Positions 22,484-39,108 of a DNA stretch of 40,631 nt are shown piece after piece; the stretch's first letter is position 1, and the number at the start of each line of letters is the position of its first letter. The stretch spans positions 1 to 40,631 of the IMG/VR virus record IMGVR_UViG_3300042197_003187; one strand, written 5' to 3'. The translations under genes and the position numbers were made by a program. This stretch comes from a virus. The notes under the pieces were generated by a model, which worked only from the letters and a program-made list of their open reading frames with translations, was not told the DNA's origin and searched no databases.

Positions 22484-23761
22484 TTACTTGGTGGCGGTGA
22501 GGGGACGTTTCCAGGCGTCAACCGTGCGGCTGCGGTAGGCAGCGATGGGGTTGGCGGTGGACTGGCCGGCACCTTTCAGCGCATCACGCAGGGCGGTGGT
22601 GCTGTCGGCGCGGTCGGAATCGGCGTCCTCTTTGGTCTCCTCGTCGCCTTCGGCGGAGTCGTCCTCGGAGTCGGCGTCTTCGTCGCCTTCGGCGTCAGCG
22701 CGAGCGGCGAGGATGCCTTCAACCACGCCCTGGATGTAGGCGGGTTCGGCGTCTCCGCGCGGGGCGGAGCCGGTGAGGTTCTCGAAGGCCTGTACGTACA
22801 GGGAGGCGTCGTCGATGCCGTCGAACTTGAAGTCCTCGGTGAACGCGGGGGCGAGTCGCTGCAGCGTGGCGAGGCGCTCGGCGACGAGCTGGTCGAGCTC
22901 GGCGGTATCGATGCGGGCTTCGGTGGAGGCAGCGAGCTGCTCCTCGAGAGCGTCGGCGCGACCTTCAGCGGCCTCTTTGTCGTAGGCCAGAGCGTCGAAA
23001 TCGGCCTGCAGAGAATCGAGCTTGGTGGCAAGCTCGTCGCGCTCGGTGGTGAGGGCTTGCAGTTGGCGCCCCATGTCCCGGGAGTAGGACTGGACCGCGC
23101 TGGCTGCTTCTGCGGGCAGATCGATCTCCAGGCCGTCGAGTTTGACGGTTGCCATAACGGGAGATGCAGTTGAACTGGACTGGGGCGCCATTTCGTGCTC
23201 GGGGAAGGCGGCTACAGCATCGGCTGCATCCATTCGGTCGAGCAAGAGTCGTACCTCCGGGCCAGCCCGGCCGCGGGGGACAATGGCGATGTGGTTCACC
23301 CGGATGTTGCGCTGGACGCCGGCGTACTCTTCGCCCTCGGGGGTGATCCCGGGGGTCGGGTCGAAGTCGACTTTGTAGCCGGCGGATACCTCGGTGGCAT
23401 CCTTGCGCTTGATCTTCTCGATGGCGTCGGCGTCGGTGACGACGAGCGCGACTTCGACAAAACCGTCGTTGTACCGGACCTGGCTACCGGAGTAGCCGAC
23501 CTGGAACTGTTTGGTGTTGGCGGAGTCGAGAAGAACAGGTGGGTGACCCCACGTTGCGGGCTTCATGCCGAACGTGGAGAGGGAGTCCGGGCTACTGACC
23601 TCCTCCGGAGGGCGGTATTCACGGACTTGGGAGCCATCAGCACGGCGGTAGAGCTGTGTGCCCGAGCGGGCAGCACGGCACCAGACCCGGAGGTAGCCCT
23701 CTGGGGTGGTCTCGCTGCCAGTTATGGGAGCGAAGTCGTACCTGGATACTGATGTTTCCAT
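22484..23761 (-). CDS. Prohead protease (DUF2213-type) fused to scaffold (425 aa)
   Basis: Residues 1 to about 190 match DUF2213 prohead protease architecture: EGYLRVWCRAARSGTQLYRR, then TWGHPPV, DATEVSAGYKVDFD (Ser126) and VNHIAIVPRGRAGPEVRLL (His157). The Ser/His pair is the expected catalytic centre of this herpes-assemblin-like group. Residues about 220-300 are coiled coil (LQALTTERDELATKLDSLQA) and residues 355-390 are very acidic, as in scaffolds. An internal ATG at 23155 (MATVKLDGLEIDLP) could give a scaffold-only product, as in lambda C/Nu3, although no ribosome binding site is obvious. It shapes the prohead and then cleaves scaffold and possibly other head contents. Confidence 0.85.
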   Translation of the reverse strand: METSVSRYDFAPITGSETTPEGYLRVWCRAARSGTQLYRRADGSQVREYRPPEEVSSPDSLSTFGMKPATWGHPPVLLDSANTKQFQVGYSGSQVRYNDGFVEVALVVTDADAIEKIKRKDATEVSAGYKVDFDPTPGITPEGEEYAGVQRNIRVNHIAIVPRGRAGPEVRLLLDRMDAADAVAAFPEHEMAPQSSSTASPVMATVKLDGLEIDLPAEAASAVQSYSRDMGRQLQALTTERDELATKLDSLQADFDALAYDKEAAEGRADALEEQLAASTEARIDTAELDQLVAERLATLQRLAPAFTEDFKFDGIDDASLYVQAFENLTGSAPRGDAEPAYIQGVVEGILAARADAEGDEDADSEDDSAEGDEETKEDADSDRADSTTALRDALKGAGQSTANPIAAYRSRTVDAWKRPLTATK

Positions 23762-24039
23762 GCTTAAGAGCTTACCGGTTCTTGTGCGTTTGGTTAGGTT
23801 TATGCACAGAGCGGTTACAGCACTTGGCGATTCATAGGCAGCTGACTTTGTGTAGGCGCATTAGAGCGCTACGGGAGTACCACAAGCTTACGCAGTTTGA
23901 AGTTGCAGAGAGACTGGGGATTAGTCAAGCTGCATATTCGAGGTTAGAGAAAGGTGAGGTAGAGGTTTCAGTAATGAAGTTGATAGCGCTGAGCGAAGTC
24001 TATGATGTAAGGCTGCAGGAGCTTGTAAAAGATATTTGA
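23752..24039 (+). CDS. XRE-family HTH regulator on the opposite strand
   Basis: RIRALREYHKLTQFEVAERL followed by GISQAAYSRLEKGEVEVSVM is a textbook XRE/Cro-type helix-turn-helix, with the LTQ...VAE.LGIS...YSRLE pattern. The only in-frame ATG is 23752, but the 32 residues before the domain are unconvincing. TTG at 23848 or 23824 would give a minimal 64-72 aa protein and leave a promoter gap from the protease gene. It is alone on the plus strand within a minus-strand head operon. It diverges from the protease gene and ends exactly against the stop of the 421-aa gene (TGATCA). Its base composition is AT-richer than its neighbours, which suggests later insertion. Possible roles are control of late genes or of a host promoter. 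Confidence 0.75.
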   Translation: MFPCLRAYRFLCVWLGLCTERLQHLAIHRQLTLCRRIRALREYHKLTQFEVAERLGISQAAYSRLEKGEVEVSVMKLIALSEVYDVRLQELVKDI

Positions 24040-25340: not shown

Positions 25341-26786
25341 CTACAGCGGGGTACCGAAGGGCTGCCGGCGCTCGCGGGCGCGACGGGCGGCGCGCTCGGG
25401 CTCTAGGGCTCGTTGCAGCTGCGGAACTTTGACCCCGAGAGCTTTGGCTGCCTCGCTCATGTTGATGAGCCCGCGCTCCATGGCTTGGCGCGGAGCTGTA
25501 CGGGCGTTGGCCGTCAGGATACGGCGGGTCAGGCCGGGGATGCGGGGTTGATCGGCACCGCTGACGAAGCGGGAGCGGGGTATGCGGTCCTCCGCGAGGA
25601 GTTCGCGCTCGAGTGCGTCGTGGTAGCGCTTGACTGCGATCTCAAAGCGCTCGGTGTTGTCTGCGCCGCCGTAGGTAGCAAGTGCTTTTGCCTGCTTTTC
25701 TACGTTAGCTAATACGCCTTTGTATTTGTTAGTAAAATCAGCGCCGCGTGAGCTAAAACCTAAGAAGTCGGGAAGCCTACCCATATCGTACATCAAATTC
25801 ATTACGCCGTTGCGATAGTGTGCTGGCTGCCTGCCGTCGTGTAGTTCTGTGGCGTAGCCGAAGTCGATCAATGCTACTTTTTTGCTCTTAGCATTAACCA
25901 TGAGATTTCCGTTATGGATGTCTCCGTGGGCTAAGCCGGCTGTGTGTAGCTTGCGGAACTCGCGCGCGATTTTTGTTTTAACAATTAGTGGTGCATTTGA
26001 AGCGTTACCGTATGAGTCGCGGTATTCCTTACCCAAAGTCTTGTAGCCCTTCATATGGGTCAGTACGAGAGTCTGCGATCTGACTTCGCCATCGATGTCT
26101 CTGACTGCTTGCATACGCAACGGCGAAGGAACATTGACGCCAGCATGATCAGCTAGATCCAAGCGCCTGAACTCGCTGGCTACATCGTCCTCGTCGCCGT
26201 TGCGGAACAGTTTGATGCCGTACTTCTCGGATGGGTGAACGAAGTAGGTGCCAAAAGCTCCTGCACCTGCTTGGCAGCGTGGTTGGTTGACGTAGCCTCC
26301 CGCAGATGCGAGGCCCTGGCTGCCGGTAGACACCAAGGCGAGGGCGTGCATAGCCCCGGTGGAAAGGCCGTACCAATCGGTATCGGCGTCAAATTTCCCC
26401 GGGGCTTGGGTCTTTCCCAGGCCACCGCCGCATTCAGCAGCGCGGCGGCGCTGGTTGATCTGGTCCTGGACATCCCACGTCTGGCCTCCTGCGAGGGCTT
26501 CGTCGACGAGGCGCTGAGCTTCGTCCTCGGTGAGCTTGGGGTTGTTCAGCTTGTTGGCGGGGTTTTTGTCCCACGCCTCTTTGGTCATGTACTTACTGGC
26601 GATGGCGGCACCTCCTGCTACTACGCCTGCGACGAGAGCGACTTTAGCAGCTGTTTTGAGGGTTTCTGCTGTTATACCGCTTGCGTTTTTAGTGCATTTG
26701 TGCGCTTTGGGGATGTGGGAATTGCCGCAGGGCTTCCCCGGGCCGCCGGAGGGGGCGTCGTTCCTTACCAGGCCGAGGACTTTCCC
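25341..26786 (-). CDS. Kinase-like cargo protein, probably made by -1 frameshift from the preceding gene
   Basis: The frame is open from 26852 to the stop at 25341. Only two GTG codons (26852, 26834) could start it. Neither has a ribosome binding site and both lie inside the 239-aa gene. It joins that gene in the -1 frame at GGGAAAG 26780-26786, giving a predicted 714-aa fusion. Numbering from 26852, the order is: motif CGNSHIPKAHKC (42-53), hydrophobic helix VALVAGVVAGGAAIAS (71-86), a linker, then a kinase-like domain with glycine-rich GAGAFGT (196-202), Lys214, Glu227, HGDIHNGN (309-316) and DFG (330-332). These match Bud32/RIO/LPS-kinase-like enzymes and all catalytic residues are present. 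The domain is AT-richer than its surroundings. Substrate unknown. Head-operon location suggests virion delivery. Confidence 0.8.
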   Translation of the reverse strand, partial: GKVLGLVRNDAPSGGPGKPCGNSHIPKAHKCTKNASGITAETLKTAAKVALVAGVVAGGAAIASKYMTKEAWDKNPANKLNNPKLTEDEAQRLVDEALAGGQTWDVQDQINQRRRAAECGGGLGKTQAPGKFDADTDWYGLSTGAMHALALVSTGSQGLASAGGYVNQPRCQAGAGAFGTYFVHPSEKYGIKLFRNGDEDDVASEFRRLDLADHAGVNVPSPLRMQAVRDIDGEVRSQTLVLTHMKGYKTLGKEYRDSYGNASNAPLIVKTKIAREFRKLHTAGLAHGDIHNGNLMVNAKSKKVALIDFGYATELHDGRQPAHYRNGVMNLMYDMGRLPDFLGFSSRGADFTNKYKGVLANVEKQAKALATYGGADNTERFEIAVKRYHDALERELLAEDRIPRSRFVSGADQPRIPGLTRRILTANARTAPRQAMERGLINMSEAAKALGVKVPQLQRALEPERAARRARERRQPFGTPL

Positions 26787-27484
26787 GGCGTAAGCGCGTC
26801 GTCGCGGCGGGATACCTTGCCGCTGCAGCGCCACTTGGTGCGCGACAAGCACAGCGGAGTGTTGCGATCGGGCCCGCTGCAGTCCTTGCCGTGGGACTTC
26901 ATGTCGCCGAAGCTGCGGGCGCAGTAGCGGTCGCCTTTGGCGGTGCCGGGGGCGATGGTGTAGCCCTTAGCGCCGTAGCGGACGCGGTTCTTGCGGCCGG
27001 TCTCGGGGTTGGTGACGGTCTTGGAGTACTTCTTGCCGTCCTCGGCGTCGAAGCCTGCTGCCCAAACGTCGGTTTTGGAGCTCACCATGACAGGGGCGCC
27101 GGTGCGCTCCTTGCGTGGGTCTTCGCGGCGCTTGCGGGCGACGAGGCGGCGGCGCTCAGCAGGGGAAAGCGCCATCGCTTTGGCGGCCGGGAGGCATTTG
27201 GGCTTGCCTTCGCCCTCGGTGCGGTCGCCACAGGAGCCGAGGATGCGGCCGGTGCTGCTCATGCGCACCCACTTCTCCTTGAACCACTTGTCGAGGGCGT
27301 CGTTACGGAAGGTGCCGCCGCGCTTTTTGTACTCGCGGACCATCCAGGCGTTGGCGTAGGCGCTCGGGTAGATCTTGAACTTGCGTTTGGCCTCGGCTTT
27401 GACAGCGGCGTGCAGCTTGGCGTCGGCGAAAACGACCCCGCGGGCATCGGCGCGTAGGCGCAGGGTCGCGGGGGTGAGGTTCAT
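26765..27484 (-). CDS. Basic Cys-containing protein upstream of a frameshift (239 aa)
   Basis: ATG 27484 overlaps the previous stop by 4 bases. Residues about 36-76 (FKIYPSAYANAWMVREYKKR, DKWFKEKWVRM) and 85-120 (CGD...KPKCLPAAKAMALSPAE, then ERRRLVARKRRED) follow a pattern I associate with small basic proteins, DUF5872-like, in phages and giant viruses. Residues about 186-223 hold a second Cys cluster (DRYCARSFGDM, NTPLCLSRTKWRCSGK). Residues 136-145 carry SKTDVWAAGF, shared with two neighbours. The protein has at least seven cysteines and a high charge, so nucleic acid or metal binding is possible. The short tail after RCSGK contains GGGAAAG four codons before the last sense codon. Confidence 0.75.
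   Translation of the reverse strand: MNLTPATLRLRADARGVVFADAKLHAAVKAEAKRKFKIYPSAYANAWMVREYKKRGGTFRNDALDKWFKEKWVRMSSTGRILGSCGDRTEGEGKPKCLPAAKAMALSPAERRRLVARKRREDPRKERTGAPVMVSSKTDVWAAGFDAEDGKKYSKTVTNPETGRKNRVRYGAKGYTIAPGTAKGDRYCARSFGDMKSHGKDCSGPDRNTPLCLSRTKWRCSGKVSRRDDALTPGKSSAW
26780..26786 (-). other. Predicted -1 frameshift site GGGAAAG in the cargo block
   Basis: The zero frame reads CCG GGA AAG TCC and reaches TAA four codons later. The heptamer G GGA AAG is the same slippery sequence known from lambda G/GT. The -1 frame (GGG AAA GTC CTC) is open for a further 479 codons and encodes the kinase-like protein. GC-rich sequence directly downstream (CCGGCGGCCCGGGG) could form a stimulatory structure. 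I have not folded it. Confidence 0.72.
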
Positions 27485-29280: not shown

Positions 29281-30144
29281 TCAATCGAACGGCTGAGGGG
29301 CGAACTGCTCGAAGACTGCGGCTTTGTTGAGGTCAGCGGGGCCGACGGTCGGCACCCGGGAGACTTCCTCGCGATGGCGGCGAGGAAGAGCTGCGTACTC
29401 GGGGTCGATGGCAGCAATCTCGGGGTCCCAGGGTGCTAGGTAGCAGCGGCAGCGCGGGTGGGCTGGTGCATTAGTACTAGCGCGCCTGTAGATGCGGCCG
29501 GCGCGGGCGTTGCAGATGGGGCAGGTGCGGTCGTCGCTTGTGGCATACCACATGACGAGGTCAATGCCGTTAGCGGCGTAGTACTGGTTGCTGGCGGAGT
29601 TGTAAGCGCGGAGCGACTCGGTGCGGGCGATGACGTCGGCGCGGGATTTCACCACGCCGAGGCGCAGGCGCAGGTCGTTGGTGATGGCGTCGGTGGGGCG
29701 GCCTTCGGCGATGCCCTGGGCAACGAGCTCGGTGGCGGTGGTGGCGAAAGCTTCACCGTGGCGGCGGAGATAGCCGCGGGCCTGTGCTGCGGCGGCCACG
29801 GTGGCCTCGATGGGGATCGAAACGTCGATGCGCCGTCGATCGGGGGCGATGTCGCGCAGAAGTTCTCGGGCGACGCCGGTGCCGCTGCGTTCGGAACTGC
29901 GCAGGAGGCTACGTAGGACACGGTCGTAGCCGTCAGTGCGGTCCGGGCGGAAGGCGGGGATCAGCTGGCGGAACTCTTGGAGGAGGGCGACGTTGCGGTC
30001 GGCGGCTGGCGTGCCGCTGCGCAGCTGAATGCGGGTGCGGCGGAGGAGGCGATTGAAGCTGGTATCGAGGATGCGGTTGAACTGGGTGATGGTGACGTCC
30101 TCGGAGCGACGGAGGGCGGAGTTGTAGCGCTCAAGGAGTTGCAT
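29281..30144 (-). CDS. Head morphogenesis protein, SPP1 gp7/Mu F-like (287 aa)
   Basis: ATG 30144 shares one base with the stop of the 1148-aa gene (TAATG). The N-terminal two-thirds is helical (LLERYNSALRRSEDVTITQF and onward). The C-terminal part carries the family signature: SRADVIARTESLRAYNSASN, then MWYATSDDRTCPICNARAG (Cys208, Cys211) and a HPRCRCYLAPWD segment (His229, Cys232, Cys234), which likely bind zinc. In this family the protein works with the portal in proheads and is often injected with DNA. In most relatives this gene directly follows the portal. Here the 1148-aa gene is inserted between them. Confidence 0.88.
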   Translation of the reverse strand: MQLLERYNSALRRSEDVTITQFNRILDTSFNRLLRRTRIQLRSGTPAADRNVALLQEFRQLIPAFRPDRTDGYDRVLRSLLRSSERSGTGVARELLRDIAPDRRRIDVSIPIEATVAAAAQARGYLRRHGEAFATTATELVAQGIAEGRPTDAITNDLRLRLGVVKSRADVIARTESLRAYNSASNQYYAANGIDLVMWYATSDDRTCPICNARAGRIYRRASTNAPAHPRCRCYLAPWDPEIAAIDPEYAALPRRHREEVSRVPTVGPADLNKAAVFEQFAPQPFD

Positions 30145-33100
30145 TAGGTGGGGCGCCGTAAGTCTTGACGTACTGCTTCGTGAAACGCTAGCAAGTCTTT
30201 TTGAGTGAGTGCTTCTCCTTTGCTTATCTTTGTTTGTAGTGCTTTTTTGCGGTTTGCCATTGCGGTGTATAGCGGCGTATTCGTGTCTTTTGCTGCACTC
30301 ATTAAGTTGTTTATATCGGATAGGCCGTTTTTAGCTGTAGCGCCAGCATTACCGAAGTCTATTATCTTTACGTCATTGCCTTTAGTTAGGACATTACCCA
30401 TGTGTAGGTCACCATGGGAATAGCCTAGACGGTGCATCTTTTCTACTTCACGTAAAGCTCCTTGTACAGCTTTACCGCGCTGCTCAGATGTAAGCGATTT
30501 AACCGTGTCGTAGCCTTTTAGGTAGTCCATCATGACTACGCCTTTATTCGGGTCTGCGTTGTGGATTTTAGGAACGCTGATACCTGCAGCGTGCAGGGCG
30601 TTCTGTGTGTTTACCTCGTTAGCAAAGGCCGCTTTGTCTACTTTACCTTTAGGCGTCTTAATTACGTACTTATCGTCTTGCGAAATCCAGGTGCGACCGC
30701 TGACGCCCTCGGTGAGGTACTTGGCTCCCTGAGGCGGGTTGTTTTTGTCAAATGGTTTCGCGTTAGCAAATATGCGTTGGGCAGCTGGTGTCCATTTAGG
30801 AGCAGTGATCGCTAAGGCAGCAGCACCGGCAGCGGCAGCGGCGAGGGCTAAGCGCTTATTGCTACCGCCCTCTTTAGGCTTTTTTGCGGTCGCTGTGCCT
30901 CCAGCAGTCTTGCTGCAGTTGTGTGCTTTGGGTATGTGAGAAGCACCGCAGGGTTTGCCTGTAGCTGCGTCGGCACGGTCACCCCGGATCAGACCCGCCA
31001 TGTATCCCATCTGCTCCTCGGGGATCTTGGTGAACTTGCCCTGGTTCTTCAGCGCCCACAGGCGGTCGGTCTTCAACCCAGTGATGGCCTGGAAGCCCAT
31101 GCCCTCATAGATCGATTTACGCTTGGCGCCTTTGCCGTCGTCCTTGTGGGGGACTGCGAAAAGGACAGCGTTCTCGGGGAGCATCTCCAGCTGCGATTGG
31201 TACATCGCCTTGGTTGTGCGGATCAGCTGCTTGGCCTGGGCGCTGGGCATGCCACCGGCAGCGTCGTACTTGCTGTCGATCGTGAAGCCGAGGCCGTACT
31301 GGGGGAACTTGCTGACGTTGCCTTTGCGCTCTGAACCAAAAGTCAGAAGGCTGTCGCCGATGGACCCCACCGAGAGGTGGGTGCCGTTGGGGGTCACCCA
31401 GGTGGAGAAGTTGTTCTTGATGTCGACAGCGCGAATCTGCGAGCCCTGAGCACGGAGCGCCATGTGGGCGGCGGCGAGCTTGGCATCGCCGACTAACTGA
31501 CGCGCAGGATCGCGGAACTTCTCAGGCAACTTGTCGAGGCCCTCTTTGACTTGCGGAGCCGAGAGGCCTCGGATGGCTTTCTGGCTGAGGGACGGTACCA
31601 GCGTTTGGCGCTGCTTGTAGGCGAGGAGGCCGCCAACGGTAAGAGCAGCGCCGGCGGCTGCGACGGCTAGGGCTGCACCGGTGCGGGCCGAGGGCTTACC
31701 GCTCTCGGTGGGCTGTGCAGTTGCAGCGGCGCCTCCGCTCTTCCGGCACTCATGTGCTTTCGGGATGTGCGAGGCGCCGCAGGGCTTTCCCTCGGCGTCG
31801 ATGCGGGCGTCGCCGCGTTGGCGGCGAGCGATCTCGGAGCGGGCGGCGCGGTAGGAGGCCTCGAGGCTCATGTCCTCCCCGCGGCGCTGGGCGGCTTCGC
31901 GGAGGGTGCGGGCAAGGTCGGTGATTTGGGCCTGGGGGCTGCGGCGGCCCCGGGGTGGGGTAGTCGGAGCCGCGGCGCGGGTGCTGGTGGCGGGCTGGCC
32001 TGCGGCCTGAACCGGCACCAGGCGCTCGAAGCCGTTCTGCTGCAAATAGCGGGTGGCATCAGCGAGACCGGTGATGTCGCGGCCGGCGAGCTCGGAGGCA
32101 GCGGTGCGTGTCTCTCGATCCGAGAGGCTGAAGGTGCTGCTGCCGCTTACCTGGCGGGCGAAGTACTCCTTCGAGATGGCGTCGCTGAGGCCTTGACCAA
32201 TGCGGCTGGTGACGTTCTCGGGCTTCGCCAAGCGCTGAGCGAGGTAGCGAGCGTGACCGATGCGGGCGCTATTGAGTAGATCGCTGTAGCCAGCGCGGCG
32301 CTGCTCTGTAGGTATGGCGACGCCGGGCGTCTGGCGAACTTCGTCGGCGATGCGACCGAAGTACTGGTCAAACCCGTCTCGGGTCTCGCGGTAGATGCGG
32401 TTAGCGAGCTCGGTTCGGCTCACTGCGGCTTCCCGGGTGCGCGGAGCGGCACCGAGGATCTGATTCAGGTTGCCGACAGCGCGTTCGCGAACGTTCTCGG
32501 GGAAGTTGGCAGTGCTGGGGCCGACGAGGCGGTTGAGAAAGCGCGTGCGAGCTTCGGCGTCGTTGATGTTGACGCCCTGCTGACGGGCAAGAGCTTGCAG
32601 GCTGGCAGCTTCGCGGTTCAGCGAGCTCGTGAGGGCGCGGCGGACGTCGGTGTCAGTAGCACCGGCGCCTAGGCGAAAACCAAACTGCCGCGACAGGTAT
32701 TCGTGGGTGGCGGGCTCGGAGAAGGTGCTGCCATCACCAGCACCGGCGGCATTGGTGCGCTTGGTGCTCCAGAAGGCTTCGAGACTCTGCTGCCGCCAGG
32801 TTTCTGCGTTGGCACCGCGGGCGGCTGCACTGACGTCGACAGCGCCGACGCGATTGAGCAGCACGCGGGCGTTGCCGTAGTCGGTTGCGCGGCGCTCGAG
32901 CTCGGTGGGGGTGCGAAGCAGTGCGGCACTGAGGGCTGCGGGTCCTGTGGCGGCCTCGGTGGCAGCGCGAGCCGCGGCAGCCCCGGCGGCTGCGGCACCG
33001 GCGGCCCGGCGTTCAGCGCGGGCGCCGCGGATGCCCGGGGTGGCATCCAGGATGCGGTTGATGCCGGCAGCAACGGCGTCGTCGATCTGGCGGCCCACGC

Positions 33101-33590
33101 CGTCGCGGTAGAAGGGGGCCTTCTTGAGTTGGCTGTGGGTGAACAGGCCGAAGCCGACTACAGCGAGAGCAGCGGCGATGCCGCCGGCGCGGCGCTCGAG
33201 CTGGGCTTGGAGGGCCTTCTTGCGCTGCAGGTCGCCCGGGGTGGCTTTGACGATGCCGCGGACGATGGCGCGTTTGCCGCCTTCGATCTCGGAGAAGCTG
33301 CCTTTGCGGACGCCCTTGCCTAGGCGCTTGACGCCGCGCTCGATGTTGGCCAGGCCACTGACGGGGTCGGTGCGGACGGCGCGCAGGTGGGGGTCAGGGC
33401 CCTTGCCCTCTAGGCGGCAATCCCAGTTGGGTGGGATGCAACGGCCGCCACATTTGACGTTGGGTGGGTTGCAATCGACGCCGCGGGCTGTTTTACCGGT
33501 GCGGCTGCGGGCTGTGGCGTCGAGGCGAGCTTTTGTCGCCAGGTAGGCCGCGGTGCGGAAGCCTTCGGGAGTGGTGTTGCGGAGTGTCAC
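30144..33590 (-). CDS. Multidomain cargo-like protein with GNAT-like and kinase-like modules (1148 aa)
   Basis: GTG start at 33590, three bases after the portal stop, with GAGGGG upstream. Three sections each begin with the motif C-G-x-x-x-I-[SP]-x(4)-C. Section 1: CGGRCIPPNWDC (47-58), hydrophobic helix 136-150, then long Ala/Arg-rich helices to about 590. Section 2: CGASHIPKAHEC (604-615), helix 638-656, then a segment 720-860 with KSIYEGMGF, which resembles the end of a GNAT acetyltransferase. Section 3: CGASHIPKAHNC (881-892), helix 913-930, then a kinase-like domain with EGVSGRTW, Lys978, Glu992, HGDLHMGN (1059-1066) and DFG (1078-1080). The kinase DNA is AT-richer than the rest. It reads like a polyprotein of packaged modules. 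The activities are predicted only. Confidence 0.8.
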   Translation of the reverse strand: MTLRNTTPEGFRTAAYLATKARLDATARSRTGKTARGVDCNPPNVKCGGRCIPPNWDCRLEGKGPDPHLRAVRTDPVSGLANIERGVKRLGKGVRKGSFSEIEGGKRAIVRGIVKATPGDLQRKKALQAQLERRAGGIAAALAVVGFGLFTHSQLKKAPFYRDGVGRQIDDAVAAGINRILDATPGIRGARAERRAAGAAAAGAAAARAATEAATGPAALSAALLRTPTELERRATDYGNARVLLNRVGAVDVSAAARGANAETWRQQSLEAFWSTKRTNAAGAGDGSTFSEPATHEYLSRQFGFRLGAGATDTDVRRALTSSLNREAASLQALARQQGVNINDAEARTRFLNRLVGPSTANFPENVRERAVGNLNQILGAAPRTREAAVSRTELANRIYRETRDGFDQYFGRIADEVRQTPGVAIPTEQRRAGYSDLLNSARIGHARYLAQRLAKPENVTSRIGQGLSDAISKEYFARQVSGSSTFSLSDRETRTAASELAGRDITGLADATRYLQQNGFERLVPVQAAGQPATSTRAAAPTTPPRGRRSPQAQITDLARTLREAAQRRGEDMSLEASYRAARSEIARRQRGDARIDAEGKPCGASHIPKAHECRKSGGAAATAQPTESGKPSARTGAALAVAAAGAALTVGGLLAYKQRQTLVPSLSQKAIRGLSAPQVKEGLDKLPEKFRDPARQLVGDAKLAAAHMALRAQGSQIRAVDIKNNFSTWVTPNGTHLSVGSIGDSLLTFGSERKGNVSKFPQYGLGFTIDSKYDAAGGMPSAQAKQLIRTTKAMYQSQLEMLPENAVLFAVPHKDDGKGAKRKSIYEGMGFQAITGLKTDRLWALKNQGKFTKIPEEQMGYMAGLIRGDRADAATGKPCGASHIPKAHNCSKTAGGTATAKKPKEGGSNKRLALAAAAAGAAALAITAPKWTPAAQRIFANAKPFDKNNPPQGAKYLTEGVSGRTWISQDDKYVIKTPKGKVDKAAFANEVNTQNALHAAGISVPKIHNADPNKGVVMMDYLKGYDTVKSLTSEQRGKAVQGALREVEKMHRLGYSHGDLHMGNVLTKGNDVKIIDFGNAGATAKNGLSDINNLMSAAKDTNTPLYTAMANRKKALQTKISKGEALTQKDLLAFHEAVRQDLRRPT

Positions 33591-33593
33591 TGA

Positions 33594-35432
33594 TCAGTAC
33601 CCCTCGTTGTAGGCGCGGAAGGCGTCGGCCTCGGCGTCGGGCACTGGTGAAAGCCCTGCCACATTCTGACCGGGAAAGAAGTGCTGGACGGCGACTTTGG
33701 CGGCGCGGAGTGAGTTGAAGCCGGTGGTGTAGGGGCCATCGGTGATGGCACTGTCCAGGGCGAACCGTGCTCGGTAGAGCTTTCGTGCTCGGGTGCGGTG
33801 GGGGCCAAGGATCAGCACAGGGGCTGCGGCGCTGCTGTCGATGCGCTGGCCGTCGGGGCCGACGAGTGGGCCGGCTACGACGTCGCCGTGGCGGTGCGTG
33901 ATGCGGATGCGCAGGCCCTCGGCGTCGGCGAAGAGGGCGTCGCCGCGGTCACCTTCGGCGGGAGGCAGAATACCGCCTTCGGCGGCAGGTTCTCCCTCGG
34001 TGGGTGTGGCTTCGCCCTCGGGGAGCTCCGCGGGTTGCTGGGCGGCCTGCAGTTGGGCGTCGTAGCCCGCCATCTGCGACTGGAACTGGGCGTCGGTGCT
34101 GGCGATGAGCTGCTGGGTGACGGCTTCGTTGAGTTTTGTATCGATTGAGTACTCGGTGCCGCCGAAACGGGACTCGCGGACCTCCAGGGGGTTCAAAACA
34201 CCGAGCTGGATGTACTGGGCGTCGGAAGCTGCCTTGAGTTGGTGGAGCTCAGCCTTCTCTTTCTCGGTCTGGGTGAAGACCGAGGGGAACATCACCGACC
34301 AGGACTCGGGGATGCGACCGCGGGTTGGTCCTTCACGTGAGGCGAAGATGTAGGTGAAGACCTCGGTGATTGGGGTGCGGCAGTAGACCTCTTGCCACTG
34401 CTCAACGAGGGAGGACCAGATGCGCTCTTCGAAGCGTCCTTCTTTGCCGAGGCCACCGGGCGAGTCGCCCATGAGGATGGAGGCGGGCCATCCGGTAGCG
34501 GCCTGAAGATCCTTGATGAAGGGATCGGTTGCGGTGGCAATGTTGCTCAGAGCGCGGTTGATGAAGCTGATCTCTTCTTCGACGTCGACCACCATGCCGC
34601 CGTAGACGCTGCGGCTCAGGTTGTTGGCTTCGAGGCGCTTACGTAGGTCGGACTCGTTGCCGGCGGCGATGCGGTTGAACAGTCCGGGAATCTTGTGAAC
34701 GAAGACGTCCGAGTCGGAGGTCATCGACTCGAGGCCGGACATGGCGGTCTCGTAGCGCTTGAAGGCGTTCCAGATGAGCTGCAGAACGGACTGGCCCCAG
34801 CCGGTGTTGCGGGAGCGGAGGTTCCAGGGCAGGTAGAGGCCGTCGAAGCGGGCGACGCGGGTGTGGTGAACGCGGATGTTGACGTAGCCGCTGGTCTGCT
34901 CGGGGGTGATGCGCTGGCTGGTGGTGATGCGGTAGTGCGAAGGACGGGAGTAGTCGGTGATGGAGAAGTCCTCGGGGATCAACTCGTGGCGCGAAAGTGG
35001 GATGTAACCGCGAATGGCGCGGATGCGGTTGAGCTCGACAGGCTCATCGGGTTGGCCGCCGTCGTCGATCAGAAGGACAAGCCCGGCGCCGCCATAGAGG
35101 CGCTGGAGTTTGATGACTTCGGAGAGGGCGAAGTGGAACTGGGAAGCTTGCAGGAACTGGTTGAAGCCAGTGAGAAGGTCGGAGTTATCTGAGGCGGCGT
35201 CGCCACCGAGGGCGATGGTGGGGCGGTGGCGGAGGATCTCGTCGCCGATGGCGTCGACGTAGCGGCGCGGGATGCCGTTGGTGTAAAGGTATTCGAGTTC
35301 TGCTTCGGTTAGAAGTGTCTGAAAGCGGACACTTGTGGCGACTGTTTTATCTTTTGACGGGACACCTAGGCCTGTTAGCGCATTAACTAATGCACCATCA
35401 TTCCGGAAATTGTCTGAAGGTGCGGTAGCCAT
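33594..35432 (-). CDS. Portal protein, DUF1073 type with C-terminal extension (612 aa)
   Basis: ATG at 35432 (MATAPSDNFRNDGALVNALT). The core has LEYLYTNGIPRRYVDAIGDE, then LQRLYGGAGLVLLIDDGGQP, SRNTGWGQSVLQLIWNAFKR and SDSDVFVHKIPGLFNRIAAG, the pattern of the DUF1073 portal family (gp1-like). It forms the dodecameric DNA entry ring. Residues about 466-497 are a Pro/Glu/Ala linker, and residues about 498-612 form an extra domain (EGLRIRITHRHGDV, then YTTGFNSLRAAKVAVQHFFP) that core portals lack. It diverges from the HNH gene across a 217-bp control region and is followed within three bases by the 1148-aa gene. Confidence 0.88.
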   Translation of the reverse strand: MATAPSDNFRNDGALVNALTGLGVPSKDKTVATSVRFQTLLTEAELEYLYTNGIPRRYVDAIGDEILRHRPTIALGGDAASDNSDLLTGFNQFLQASQFHFALSEVIKLQRLYGGAGLVLLIDDGGQPDEPVELNRIRAIRGYIPLSRHELIPEDFSITDYSRPSHYRITTSQRITPEQTSGYVNIRVHHTRVARFDGLYLPWNLRSRNTGWGQSVLQLIWNAFKRYETAMSGLESMTSDSDVFVHKIPGLFNRIAAGNESDLRKRLEANNLSRSVYGGMVVDVEEEISFINRALSNIATATDPFIKDLQAATGWPASILMGDSPGGLGKEGRFEERIWSSLVEQWQEVYCRTPITEVFTYIFASREGPTRGRIPESWSVMFPSVFTQTEKEKAELHQLKAASDAQYIQLGVLNPLEVRESRFGGTEYSIDTKLNEAVTQQLIASTDAQFQSQMAGYDAQLQAAQQPAELPEGEATPTEGEPAAEGGILPPAEGDRGDALFADAEGLRIRITHRHGDVVAGPLVGPDGQRIDSSAAAPVLILGPHRTRARKLYRARFALDSAITDGPYTTGFNSLRAAKVAVQHFFPGQNVAGLSPVPDAEADAFRAYNEGY

Positions 35433-35473
35433 GGCGCAAGCAGGCTCGGGGAGAGCTGTTGCCAGCGTAGCGG

Positions 35474-35479: not shown

Positions 35480-35491
35480 GCGAGAGCTCAT

Positions 35492-35511
35492 ACACATCAG
35501 TTACCAGATGC
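35492..35511 (-). repeat. Inverted fifth copy of the 20-bp repeat
   Basis: Read on the minus strand this is GCATCTGGTAACTG plus six diverged bases. Its first 12 bases match unit 4 of the direct array exactly, and it matches unit 3 in the GGTAACTG core. It faces the portal gene, whereas the direct array faces the HNH gene. Confidence 0.8.
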
Positions 35512-35515
35512 AAGT

Positions 35516-35595
35516 GCATTTGGTAACGTACTTGAGCATCTGGTAACGTACATCTGTATCCGGTAACTGACTTCTGCATCTGGTAACGTACTTGT
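35516..35595 (+). repeat. Four tandem 20-bp iteron-like repeats
   Basis: Four head-to-tail units at exact 20-bp spacing begin at 35516, 35536, 35556 and 35576. The common part is GCATCTGGTAACGTAC. Differences are few (GCATTT in unit 1; GTATCC and CTGAC in unit 3). The spacing is close to two helical turns, so bound proteins would line up on one face. The array ends 7 bases before a TTGACA element. It is a likely binding array for a regulator or for a packaging or replication protein. Confidence 0.9.
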
Positions 35596-35602
35596 GCGGG
35601 GG

Positions 35603-35641
35603 TTGACAGGTGGCTGAATCGCTAGCCTGGAGCAGCCACCT
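35603..35641 (+). promoter_or_regulatory. TTGACA element and 9-bp hairpin before the HNH gene
   Basis: TTGACA at 35603-35608 is a perfect -35 hexamer. The best -10 candidate is poor (TAGCCT at 35623, short spacing). An inverted repeat AGGTGGCTG (35608-35616) and CAGCCACCT (35633-35641) flanks it and ends 8 bases before the HNH ATG. The hairpin could hide the start in mRNA or be a dyad operator. Confidence 0.5.
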
Positions 35642-35649
35642 ACCAGGGC

Positions 35650-35979
35650 ATGGTTGACCATCGGATTGATGGATCACGTCTCCTGACCAAACGGCAAGCC
35701 AAGCAGCAATTCCGCGAAGGGATCCTCAACAGCTGGGGGTCCCTTTGTGCGTACTGCGGGCAGCCAGGGGACACGCTGGATCATGTGCGTCCGCGGTGTC
35801 GTGGAGGGCGTAGCGACCGCACGAACCTGGTCTGCTGCTGCGGTCCGTGCAATCGGGCAAAAGGTAGTGAGATGGACTGGCAGCGCTGGTTCAGACAGCA
35901 GAGCTGGTGGTCCTCTCACAGAGAAGACGCGATCCGGCTCTGGGTAGGTGAAGCGACTCAGGGGTGGGCAGCCGCCTGA
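35650..35979 (+). CDS. HNH endonuclease next to terminase (109 aa)
   Basis: ATG at 35650. Zinc-binding pairs C33AYC36 and C64GPC67 enclose the HNH core: D44H45 (TLDHVRPRC), N59 (RTNLVCCC) and N68 (CNRAKG) in the last position. This is the compact HNH form found beside terminase genes in many phages, where it works with TerL in DNA packaging and cos cleavage. Unusually, it is on the strand opposite to terS/terL and the portal gene. It converges with terL and diverges from the portal. A free-standing homing endonuclease is an alternative. The iteron array in front of it suggests its own control. Confidence 0.88.
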   Translation: MVDHRIDGSRLLTKRQAKQQFREGILNSWGSLCAYCGQPGDTLDHVRPRCRGGRSDRTNLVCCCGPCNRAKGSEMDWQRWFRQQSWWSSHREDAIRLWVGEATQGWAAA

Positions 35980-36037: not shown

Positions 36038-37441
36038 TTAGATGTTGTCGAAGAAGCTGGCAGTAGCCGGTGTCTCCGGGATGAGTGCACAGGCGAAGGC
36101 GAGTGCCATAACAGTGTCGTCATGGGCACCACTTACGGCTTGGCGAGCGCCGCTTTCCTGTTGCTGAAACGCGCGGAGCTCGTCAGCGATTATGCCTGGC
36201 GGAAACACAAGCTCATCGCGCTCGAGCAGGTACAGGATGCGGTCGGTGGCGACGTTCTTGGAAGGGCGGCTCGTGCTGAACGTTTCGATGGCGTAGTTTG
36301 GTAGGACGTGCTGTAGCGCTTCGGCGATGACAGAGCCCATCGCTTGTTTCTCTACAATTACGCGTTGCGGCATGTAGTCTTCGATTAGGGTTTTTACATG
36401 CTTCAAGCTGTAATCTGTACTTTTACCATTTTCACGGTACATGCCAACGACCTCGTAAGGCGTGGTGGTGATATCCAGCACCATTGCTACGAAGTAGTCG
36501 TTTCCGCCGGCGTTGGGGTCAATACCGATTACGTAGCTGCGGTTAATGGAGCCGCACTCGCGCCAGTGGCCGCGGGAGGCGCGAGAGATCAGATCGTTGG
36601 GGTAGATCTGGGTGTCAGTCGCACCAAACTGCAGCTCGTACTCGGAGTTCCATGCCGCGAGCGTCATCCGGCGCGACTCGCGGGTGCGGCGGGCCCAGTC
36701 GGGGTCGGCGCCGTAGATCGGGTGCTGGGAATAGTGGATGGCCACCTTGTTCCAGTCGCCTTCGTCGGCGTGCCAGAGCTGTCCGAACCAATCGAGCTCG
36801 GTGTCAGGGGTGGACACCACAATCACTTTCGCCGCGTCGCCCACCATGGACAGCGTGGGCATGGCACCGCGGTAGATCTCGGCGGCGCCCTCGAGGAAGG
36901 CCGCTTCGTCCATGAAGAGGACGGAGCAGCTGGGGATGCCGCGAGCGGCGCGGGGTGAGGCGGGGAGAAAGTACAACGTGCCGCGACCCTCGAAGGCGAG
37001 CTGTGTGTTGCTGTCGGTGAGGTAGCGGACGGTTTCGCCGCGGAGGCTGTTGGCCATGGCACGCACGCGGCGGCCGAGTTCGGAGGCGTCCTGCTGCGTT
37101 TTGGAGAAGACCACAGCGGCGAAGCCGCGCTCGGTGAGGGCGCGGCAGAGCAGGTAGTTGCAGACGGTCTCGGAGACGCCGGTCTGGCGGGACTTGTTGA
37201 CGAGGGTGTTGGGGTGCTCGTTGATGGAGCGGATCAGATCGATCTGGTAGGCATAAGGGTCGAACGGCGCGACGGTGCCACTGGTGCGGATCCAGGTGCG
37301 TCGTGCGAACGACGGCCAGTCGGAGACGGCGGGCAGTGTCGAGGCGGTGCCAGCCTCGTAAAGAGCGGCGCGGGCTTGGCGGCGGGCCAGCTCGGTTTGG
37401 AGGCGTTCGACGCGCTTGCGGAGCGTGGAGACGGAAGGCAT
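36038..37441 (-). CDS. terL: Terminase large subunit (467 aa)
   Basis: The ATG shares one base with the terS stop (TGATG). ATPase domain: Walker A-like NKSRQTGVSET (82-92), Walker B VLFMDEA (174-180) with the catalytic Glu179, and a coupling motif VVSTPDT (208-214). Nuclease domain: GIDPNAGGNDY (Asp308), VIVEKQAMG (Glu364) and GAHDDTVMAL (Asp441/Asp442), the RNase H-like acidic centre. Both domains look intact and the length is normal for the family. It docks on the portal, pumps DNA into the prohead and cuts the concatemer. It converges with the HNH gene. Confidence 0.95.
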   Translation of the reverse strand: MPSVSTLRKRVERLQTELARRQARAALYEAGTASTLPAVSDWPSFARRTWIRTSGTVAPFDPYAYQIDLIRSINEHPNTLVNKSRQTGVSETVCNYLLCRALTERGFAAVVFSKTQQDASELGRRVRAMANSLRGETVRYLTDSNTQLAFEGRGTLYFLPASPRAARGIPSCSVLFMDEAAFLEGAAEIYRGAMPTLSMVGDAAKVIVVSTPDTELDWFGQLWHADEGDWNKVAIHYSQHPIYGADPDWARRTRESRRMTLAAWNSEYELQFGATDTQIYPNDLISRASRGHWRECGSINRSYVIGIDPNAGGNDYFVAMVLDITTTPYEVVGMYRENGKSTDYSLKHVKTLIEDYMPQRVIVEKQAMGSVIAEALQHVLPNYAIETFSTSRPSKNVATDRILYLLERDELVFPPGIIADELRAFQQQESGARQAVSGAHDDTVMALAFACALIPETPATASFFDNI

Positions 37442-37935
37442 CAGCTGTCGAAGTCCGCGGGGTCAGCGGAGGGGAGCAGCAGGTCGTCATCGTCCTCGGG
37501 ATCAGGCGCGGCGGAGGGAGCGTCCGCGGCGGCGTCGTGAGTGGCGGTGAGGCGGAGTAGCTGGCGCTCGAGGTCGGCGATCTGGCGCTCGAGGATGCGG
37601 CGCTCCTGGTAGGCCTGGGCGCCGCTCATCAGGGTGCGGGCGGCAGAGATGCGGTCGGCAGCGCGGGCGTCCTCGTCGTTGATGATGCTGTCGAGGACGC
37701 TGATGGCGGCGGGGATGGTGCTGATGTTCATGCCGCCGGTCTCGGAGAGGAGCTCCTGTTGGATCCGGGCGATGGCTTGTTGGACAGCGGGGCGCTGGCG
37801 CCAGGTGTAGACGGACTTCTCACTGACGCCGATTTTGCGGGCGGTTTCGCGGATGGTGGTGCCCCGGGCGAGCAGGGTGGCGGCGACGCGTTGTCGCTCG
37901 TTGAGACCGTCAGAGCCGTAAACGCGATTGGCCAC
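37441..37935 (-). CDS. terS: Terminase small subunit (164 aa)
   Basis: GTG start at 37935 (MANRVYGSDGLNERQRVAAT). Residues about 10-58 are a helix-turn-helix DNA-binding domain (RGTTIRETARKIGVSEKSVY, then TWRQRPAVQQAI). Residues about 95-140 are a coiled-coil oligomerisation region (AQAYQERRILERQIADLERQ), and the C-terminus is acidic (PDPEDDDDLLL). This is the usual TerS layout: DNA recognition, ring formation, then a tail that contacts TerL or portal. It is followed by terL with translational coupling. A good -10 box lies 28 bases upstream of the start. Confidence 0.9.
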   Translation of the reverse strand: MANRVYGSDGLNERQRVAATLLARGTTIRETARKIGVSEKSVYTWRQRPAVQQAIARIQQELLSETGGMNISTIPAAISVLDSIINDEDARAADRISAARTLMSGAQAYQERRILERQIADLERQLLRLTATHDAAADAPSAAPDPEDDDDLLLPSADPADFDS

Positions 37936-38625: not shown

Positions 38626-39108
38626 TTATGCGGCCAGGTAGAGGTCGCAGTCGTGGGCGAAGGTGGGGTCAGTTGCGGCCTCGGGGAAGCCGAAGGAGCA
38701 GTGGGTGCCGCTCCAGTGTGAGCAGGTTGCGCAGGTTGGGCCGGGGGCGTGGGAGCTGCGAGCGGAGGTGCGACGGGGGATGTCGGGGCGGACGGTGGGG
38801 AAGGTGCGGCCGAGGCGGATGTTGCAGATGGATTGGCGGCTGCAGTTGTAGAGGGGGGCGAGTGCGTGGTCAGAGAGGGGGGAGAGAAGGATGGTGGCGA
38901 TGTCGTTCTCGGTGAGGCCGCGGGGGCTGTAGGGGGTGGCGCGGGGTTGGTAGGCGGGGCGGTCAGGGAGGGGGCCGTCGAGGGTGGTCCAGCGGTGGGT
39001 GCAGGAGCGGCAGGCGTGGCGGCGGCGGGTGGTGCCGTTGCGGAGGGTGTTCGTGCGAAGGACGAAGGTGGAGGTGCTGCCGCACTCGGGGCAGGGGAGG
39101 GGGGTCAC
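38626..39108 (-). CDS. Zinc-ribbon/HTH protein with three Cys clusters (160 aa)
   Basis: GTG at 39108 overlaps the upstream stop as GTGA. A longer frame to 39135 adds only residues lying over the 57-aa gene. The N-terminal zinc ribbon C6xxC9 ... C33xxC36 (PCPECGSTSTFVLRT, RHACRSCTHRW) resembles NrdR-type ribbons but without the ATP cone. The middle part (LTENDIATILLSPLSDHALA, then YNCSRQSICNIRLGR) looks like a helix-turn-helix. The C-terminus has CATCSHW, HCSFGFPEA and DCDLY, a second Cys module common in cyanophage small proteins. It is likely a DNA-binding regulator. It sits between thyX and dcd, so control of nucleotide genes is possible. Confidence 0.75.
   Translation of the reverse strand: MTPLPCPECGSTSTFVLRTNTLRNGTTRRRHACRSCTHRWTTLDGPLPDRPAYQPRATPYSPRGLTENDIATILLSPLSDHALAPLYNCSRQSICNIRLGRTFPTVRPDIPRRTSARSSHAPGPTCATCSHWSGTHCSFGFPEAATDPTFAHDCDLYLAA

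Follow-up and report, generated by a model that had tools for sequence, protein, structure and literature searches.

A direct-repeat array upstream of the portal gene keeps its place and helical phase while its unit sequence changes between related phages

The repeat array and its neighbourhood

The window analysed here is the whole of a 40,631 bp IMG/VR virus record, and it contains a short row of direct repeats between the portal gene and a divergent gene for an HNH endonuclease, with the two terminase genes beyond (Table 1). Four direct units follow one another at an exact 20-bp phase over 35515–35594 (starts at 35515/35516, 35535/35536, 35555/35556 and 35575/35576), and Tandem Repeats Finder reports the row as 35515–35597, with a period of 20, 4.2 copies, 76% matches and a score of 103. 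A first-pass annotation, made from the letters of the window, had described four units that share one sequence at this spacing. The phasing is exact as it said, but the sharing was slightly overstated: GCATCTGGTAACGTAC is present without change in two of the four units, while the unit at 35516 has one mismatch and that at 35556 has four. Matches to the unit with three mismatches or fewer number four in the window against 0.19 expected from shuffling, and at a lag of 20 the array matches itself at 48 of 63 positions, where the best shuffle reached 31.

On the portal side the row is closed by an inverted copy, which matches the unit at 13 of 16 bases. It had been placed at 35492–35511, of which positions 35492–35495 fall outside it. 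At the other end the array had been said to abut a TTGACA in front of the HNH gene. The hexamer is present, stands in the 20-bp register of the array and may be a degenerate fifth unit; five units can be fitted, and TGTCAAC is held in register in several relatives with the same type of unit (type A, below). As a promoter element it is less convincing, since only 14 bp separate it from the HNH −10-like TAGCCT, as against 16–18 bp, and the promoter scan found none.

Table 1. Features at the array locus, in coordinates of the window
Feature	Position	Strand	Remarks
Portal protein	33594..35432	−	first gene of structural operon; PF06381, 1.5e-52
Portal −10-like element	35464..35469	−	TACGCT; TANNNT about here in nearly all relatives
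−35-like YATGA element	35487..35492	−	TATGAG; 17 bp from portal −10; read from sequence
Inverted copy	35496..35511	−	GCATCTGGTAACTGAT; head-to-head dyad with unit 1; shuffle p=0.002
Direct unit 1	35516..35531	+	GCATTTGGTAACGTAC
Direct unit 2	35536..35551	+	GCATCTGGTAACGTAC
Direct unit 3	35556..35571	+	GTATCCGGTAACTGAC; 4 mismatches
Direct unit 4	35576..35591	+	GCATCTGGTAACGTAC
Possible degenerate fifth unit	35596..35611	+	in 20-bp register; contains TTGACA (35603–35608)
HNH −10-like element	35623..35628	+	TAGCCT; TANNCT in many relatives; read from sequence
HNH endonuclease	35650..35979	+	divergent neighbour; PF14279/PF01844
Terminase large subunit (TerL)	36038..37441	−	PF17289/PF03237
Terminase small subunit (TerS)	37441..37935	−	N-terminal HTH; PHROG terminase small subunit

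The unit was also sought elsewhere, as the first-pass annotation had proposed, and it proved to be confined to the array: no further unit was found in the whole window, and relatives as long as 66 kb showed no type A unit outside it. Of 30 matches to a two-unit pattern in 2.9 million IMG/VR contigs, 29 lie at the array locus of this phage family. The exception, contig L322, carries two units in unrelated DNA outside the family and may be a chance match, of which a rough estimate expects about one. Neither Rfam nor phage DNA gave a match. Further into the structural operon, two proteins of the window show kinase-like catalytic loops by eye, HGDLHMGNVL...IIDFG in that encoded at 30144–33590 and HGDIHNGNLMV...LIDFG in that encoded at 25341–26852.

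Conservation of the array among relatives

The comparison covered about 100 IMG/VR relatives from an uncultured family of cyanobacterial viruses, drawn from overlapping sets of loci obtained with a portal query (80 loci), an HNH query (70) and a type J portal query (80). Among isolates, Synechococcus phage S-CBS4 comes closest, with a portal protein 39% identical over 63%; its TerS and TerL genes are turned, and no HNH gene lies between TerL and portal. A search for portal relatives in bacterial genomes found none. The long relatives encode a sigma-70-like factor and an AbrB-like protein (PF14250), with which a cyanobacterial host fits. The sigma-70-like factor (L156:12297-13187 and its orthologues in long relatives; phrog_351, 1.9e-54) spans regions 1.2–4, with region 2 conserved and region 4 divergent, and is a candidate late sigma factor.

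Long relatives that include this region share the order TerS–TerL–(reversed HNH)–array–portal. Across most of the family the array has four or five direct units with a period of 20 or 21 bp and, in most types, a portal-side inverted copy, while the letters of the units fall into about ten types. Self-match upstream of the portal gene is significant at a lag of 20 in types A and C and at a lag of 21 in types B, E, F, G, H, J, L and N (p 0.005–0.02 against shuffles in both cases). It is not significant in six array-less loci or in types D, K and M, which we therefore rejected as array types. The inverted copy reaches significance in most type A loci, in types C, F, G and J and in the type E locus L041, has p=0.078 in the type E locus L045, and is visible in L024, L027 and type B; it was not detected in L013, L021 or L037. 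Some lineages without a detectable array still keep the portal −10-like element, and the array is thus not indispensable. A lack of conservation in relatives, which the first-pass annotation had named as counting against its proposal, is not seen in that simple form: the place and the phase are kept, the letters are not.

Replacement of the unit letters

Read on the portal strand, examples of the units are GTTACCAGATRC for type A, CTAACATGTTGYGC for type B, TGTCACACACC and CTAACACG for type C, TCTAAACTCGTG for type E, TCTAAATTSTTG for type F, CTCTAAGTTTTTG for type G, TCGATCTTTCTGCA for type J and GCCCATGTTYGTG for type N. Type B is nested within type A in the portal tree, where L021 is its sister (support 100/99), and three changes are needed to account for type A. 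The pair formed by L034 (type B) and L021 (type A) is mostly 83–93% identical over TerS, TerL and HNH but only 39–48% identical in the array. Flanks so similar around unrelated units imply that the letters were replaced locally, while phase and place stayed. A row that is kept while its letters are swapped wholesale suggests the binding site of a regulator whose identity keeps changing.

Within type A the core GTTACCAGAT is constant and the spacers between units vary. This indicates sequence-specific reading, and it bears on the notion that the array is simply phased, intrinsically curved DNA whose sequence is neutral. Repeats of any sequence at two helical turns would add up their bends, and a phase that outlasts its letters fits curvature; a core held fixed between variable spacers speaks against it, and we consider curvature very improbable.

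A different explanation for the exchange of letters is homing, in which the array would belong to the neighbouring nuclease genes or be their target, and the nucleases would cut there and co-convert the flanking DNA. In L069 the segment from −199 to −52 of its relative L067 has been swapped for a block with an HNH-type gene, with sharp borders and flanks 94–95% identical. This gene (L069:4720-5187, 155 aa, phrog_374 6e-29 by profile match) is a second and different HNH-type gene. Reading of the sequence places apparently similar HNH-type genes at or beside the array position in L056 and in L055, whose flanks are 92–93% identical to those of L054. The shuffle test left no significant array in L055 or L069. 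Against homing, type N carries the array without a nuclease gene, and the type A core has remained constant over a large divergence, for which a positive binding function is needed. Homing as the source of the new letters is accordingly quite improbable.

Association with the putative portal promoter

The first-pass annotation proposed that a factor bound at the array could switch between the HNH and portal directions. The portal half of that proposal fits the comparison. A TANNNT element lies about 31–38 bp ahead of the portal start codon in nearly all types, array-bearing or not (type N has just a TAATAA-like element at this position), and the array stands directly upstream of it in nearly every array-bearing lineage. 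The HNH half does not fit. The array stands at different distances from the HNH −10-like element in different types, and in the type N loci L289, L284 and L294 the TerL stop is followed by the array and then by the portal gene, with no HNH gene. An array that persists without HNH belongs with the portal side, and we rejected an operator of the divergent HNH gene as its function.

In type A, the last GTTACC of the direct core lies 52 bp from the portal −10-like element in the window, 30 bp from it in L024 and 14 bp from it in L037; the differences correspond to about one and two units. We read this as a shift of the array edge nearest the promoter in roughly whole-unit steps relative to the portal −10, from few events in three length classes. 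With the conserved portal −10 as reference, the inverted copy of the window covers about −39 to −54. It therefore abuts the −35 position and does not overlap it as first described; in L024, L027 and types E, F, G and J a copy does lie on the −35/spacer region or near it. Type B and much of type A retain the YATGA −35-like element, and there is no −35 consensus across unit types.

Candidate binding proteins

If the array is read sequence-specifically, its reader must vary with the unit type and stay the same throughout type A. The first-pass annotation had named TerS, an XRE protein (23752–24039) and a zinc-ribbon protein (38626–39108) as possible binders, and these were examined through covariation with the unit type. 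None of the three follows the units. TerS is near-identical in L021 and L034, whose units are unrelated; its HTH is common to types A and C, and the L021 TerS is type F-like beside a type A array. The same pair speaks against the zinc-ribbon protein, and the recognition helix of the XRE protein (SQAAYSRLE) is near-invariant across all unit types. A second XRE protein has a helix nearly alike in types A and C, and also among F, G and J, and is disfavoured. The sigma factor lacks support as the reader because its region 4 varies within type A. Families present in array-bearing genomes and absent from array-less ones comprise the second XRE protein and two small proteins without DNA-binding evidence.

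A 130-aa HTH protein, possibly with an RHH-like C-terminal half, is the least excluded candidate reader on these comparisons. Its gene lies about 8–9 kb upstream of the portal gene in type A phages, and its helix SRQRILQ(L/M)(M/L)Q is kept in diverse members of that type, in which the whole protein is 58–75% identical, and differs in types C, F, G and J. The helix reads SRQC in the G003 clade, whose units keep the type A core, and the protein was not found in two partial genomes. An AlphaFold model (pLDDT 84, pTM 0.51) has an N-terminal helix-turn-helix and matched no PDB or viral fold at E<=0.001.

Alternative readings as a replication origin or packaging site

Iteron origins typically have units of this size at a phase of 20–21 bp, four or five direct and one inverted, at a single location. 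Several phased direct repeats of about 17–22 bp at one locus are what is found here, and an iteron-type origin bound by a replication initiator (or a second origin or fork barrier like SPP1 oriR) is the main rival explanation and the one that explains the repeat design best. The PrimPol–helicase also offers some support, since its helicase half separates type A from all other types, being 92–98% identical within type A and 33–40% between A and the others. However, between types C and J, whose units are unrelated, the helicase is 95% identical and the C-terminal winged helix 82%, which disfavours this protein as the reader. The array region has 46–52% GC, not below another nearby stretch, inside TerL (36300–36540 of the window), and no AT-rich unwinding element is evident beside it; the extrema of detrended GC skew do not fall consistently at the array, and lineages without a detectable array exist. 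We hold an origin to be unlikely. In the PrimPol–helicase itself (for example L156:6587-9349 and L164:435-3149, both on the minus strand) the helicase half has been exchanged as a block, while the N-terminal primase domain is 54–70% identical.

Two known systems resemble the array in this respect. The oriR of SPP1 consists of intergenic direct repeats that lie well away from the gene of the initiator (PMC6316719), and the likeness of the gp38-bound oriR and oriL to our array lies there; the array here differs in showing no AT-rich unwinding element and in the exchange of its letters between relatives. In the PLE satellites of Vibrio cholerae, iterons and the DNA-binding domain of the RepA initiator covary as modules (PMC8263062). 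There too iteron-like sites are swapped modularly between close relatives, but in our phages no examined protein convincingly covaries with the units.

The first-pass annotation offered as its alternative a packaging site comparable to the R-sites of lambda cosB, that is, a pac or cosB-like sequence read by TerS. Lambda-type cosB, with its R-sites for gpNu1, is likewise a set of several terminase-proximal sites near the head genes, and an HNH gene adjoining terminase is typical of cos phages; the array lies between TerL and portal, with multiple sites in a single copy per genome. The near-identity of TerS in L021 and L034, and the TerS HTH shared by types A and C, disfavour this alternative. 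Specificity in the TerS of HK97 comes from terminal protein segments and not from a classical HTH (PMC11331095), but L021 and L034 hardly differ at the C-terminus of TerS either. Full-size contigs break at different places and dozens span the array, so that in the contigs no genome end is visible there. The array differs from cosB in these respects and in its exact two-turn phasing, and a packaging site is improbable. Contigs L016, L017 and L018, from different samples, all begin at portal codon 8, probably where assembly stopped at the variable array, the alternative being a physical end.

A putative operator of the late promoter

In the reading we favour, to which we give a probability of roughly 0.4, the array serves the late promoter as a multi-site operator and is recognised by a putative phage protein that switches specificity. 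The four or five direct sites, at 20–21 bp or about two helical turns, lie on one face of the DNA. A phage-encoded DNA-binding protein would fill them cooperatively, head to tail, and the filled sites would control the start of late transcription at the portal-led structural operon. The simplest form of control would be to cover the −35 region from the inverted copy, where that copy lies over or close to it; sites far upstream fit activation or looping equally well. The specificity of the protein would have changed several times, and the array would have followed. An operator of this kind would explain the place of the array, its single occurrence, the same-face phasing, the inverted copy at the promoter end, the independence from HNH and the dispensability. 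A likeness is found in BldC of Streptomyces, reported to fill direct-repeat operators as cooperative multimers (PMC5859096). Head-to-tail direct repeats as a regulator site would be common to both; the putative site described here differs in its phage locus, its inverted end copy and its swapped specificity.

Late-gene control in this cyanobacterial siphovirus group is undescribed as far as we found. A kept design with exchanged letters offers a natural series for the change of regulator and operator specificity, and points to genes for first tests; should the array prove to be an origin or a packaging site, the series would document the turnover of those specificities. A further and rather doubtful step is that a regulator, or an initiator, and its array form an exchangeable address, in which specificity switches repeatedly while the place, number and helical phase of the sites are held. 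If this is true, the set of late operons that a phage can control would vary between close relatives, much as in heteroimmunity, though acting at the late promoter and in a family in which no prophage was found.
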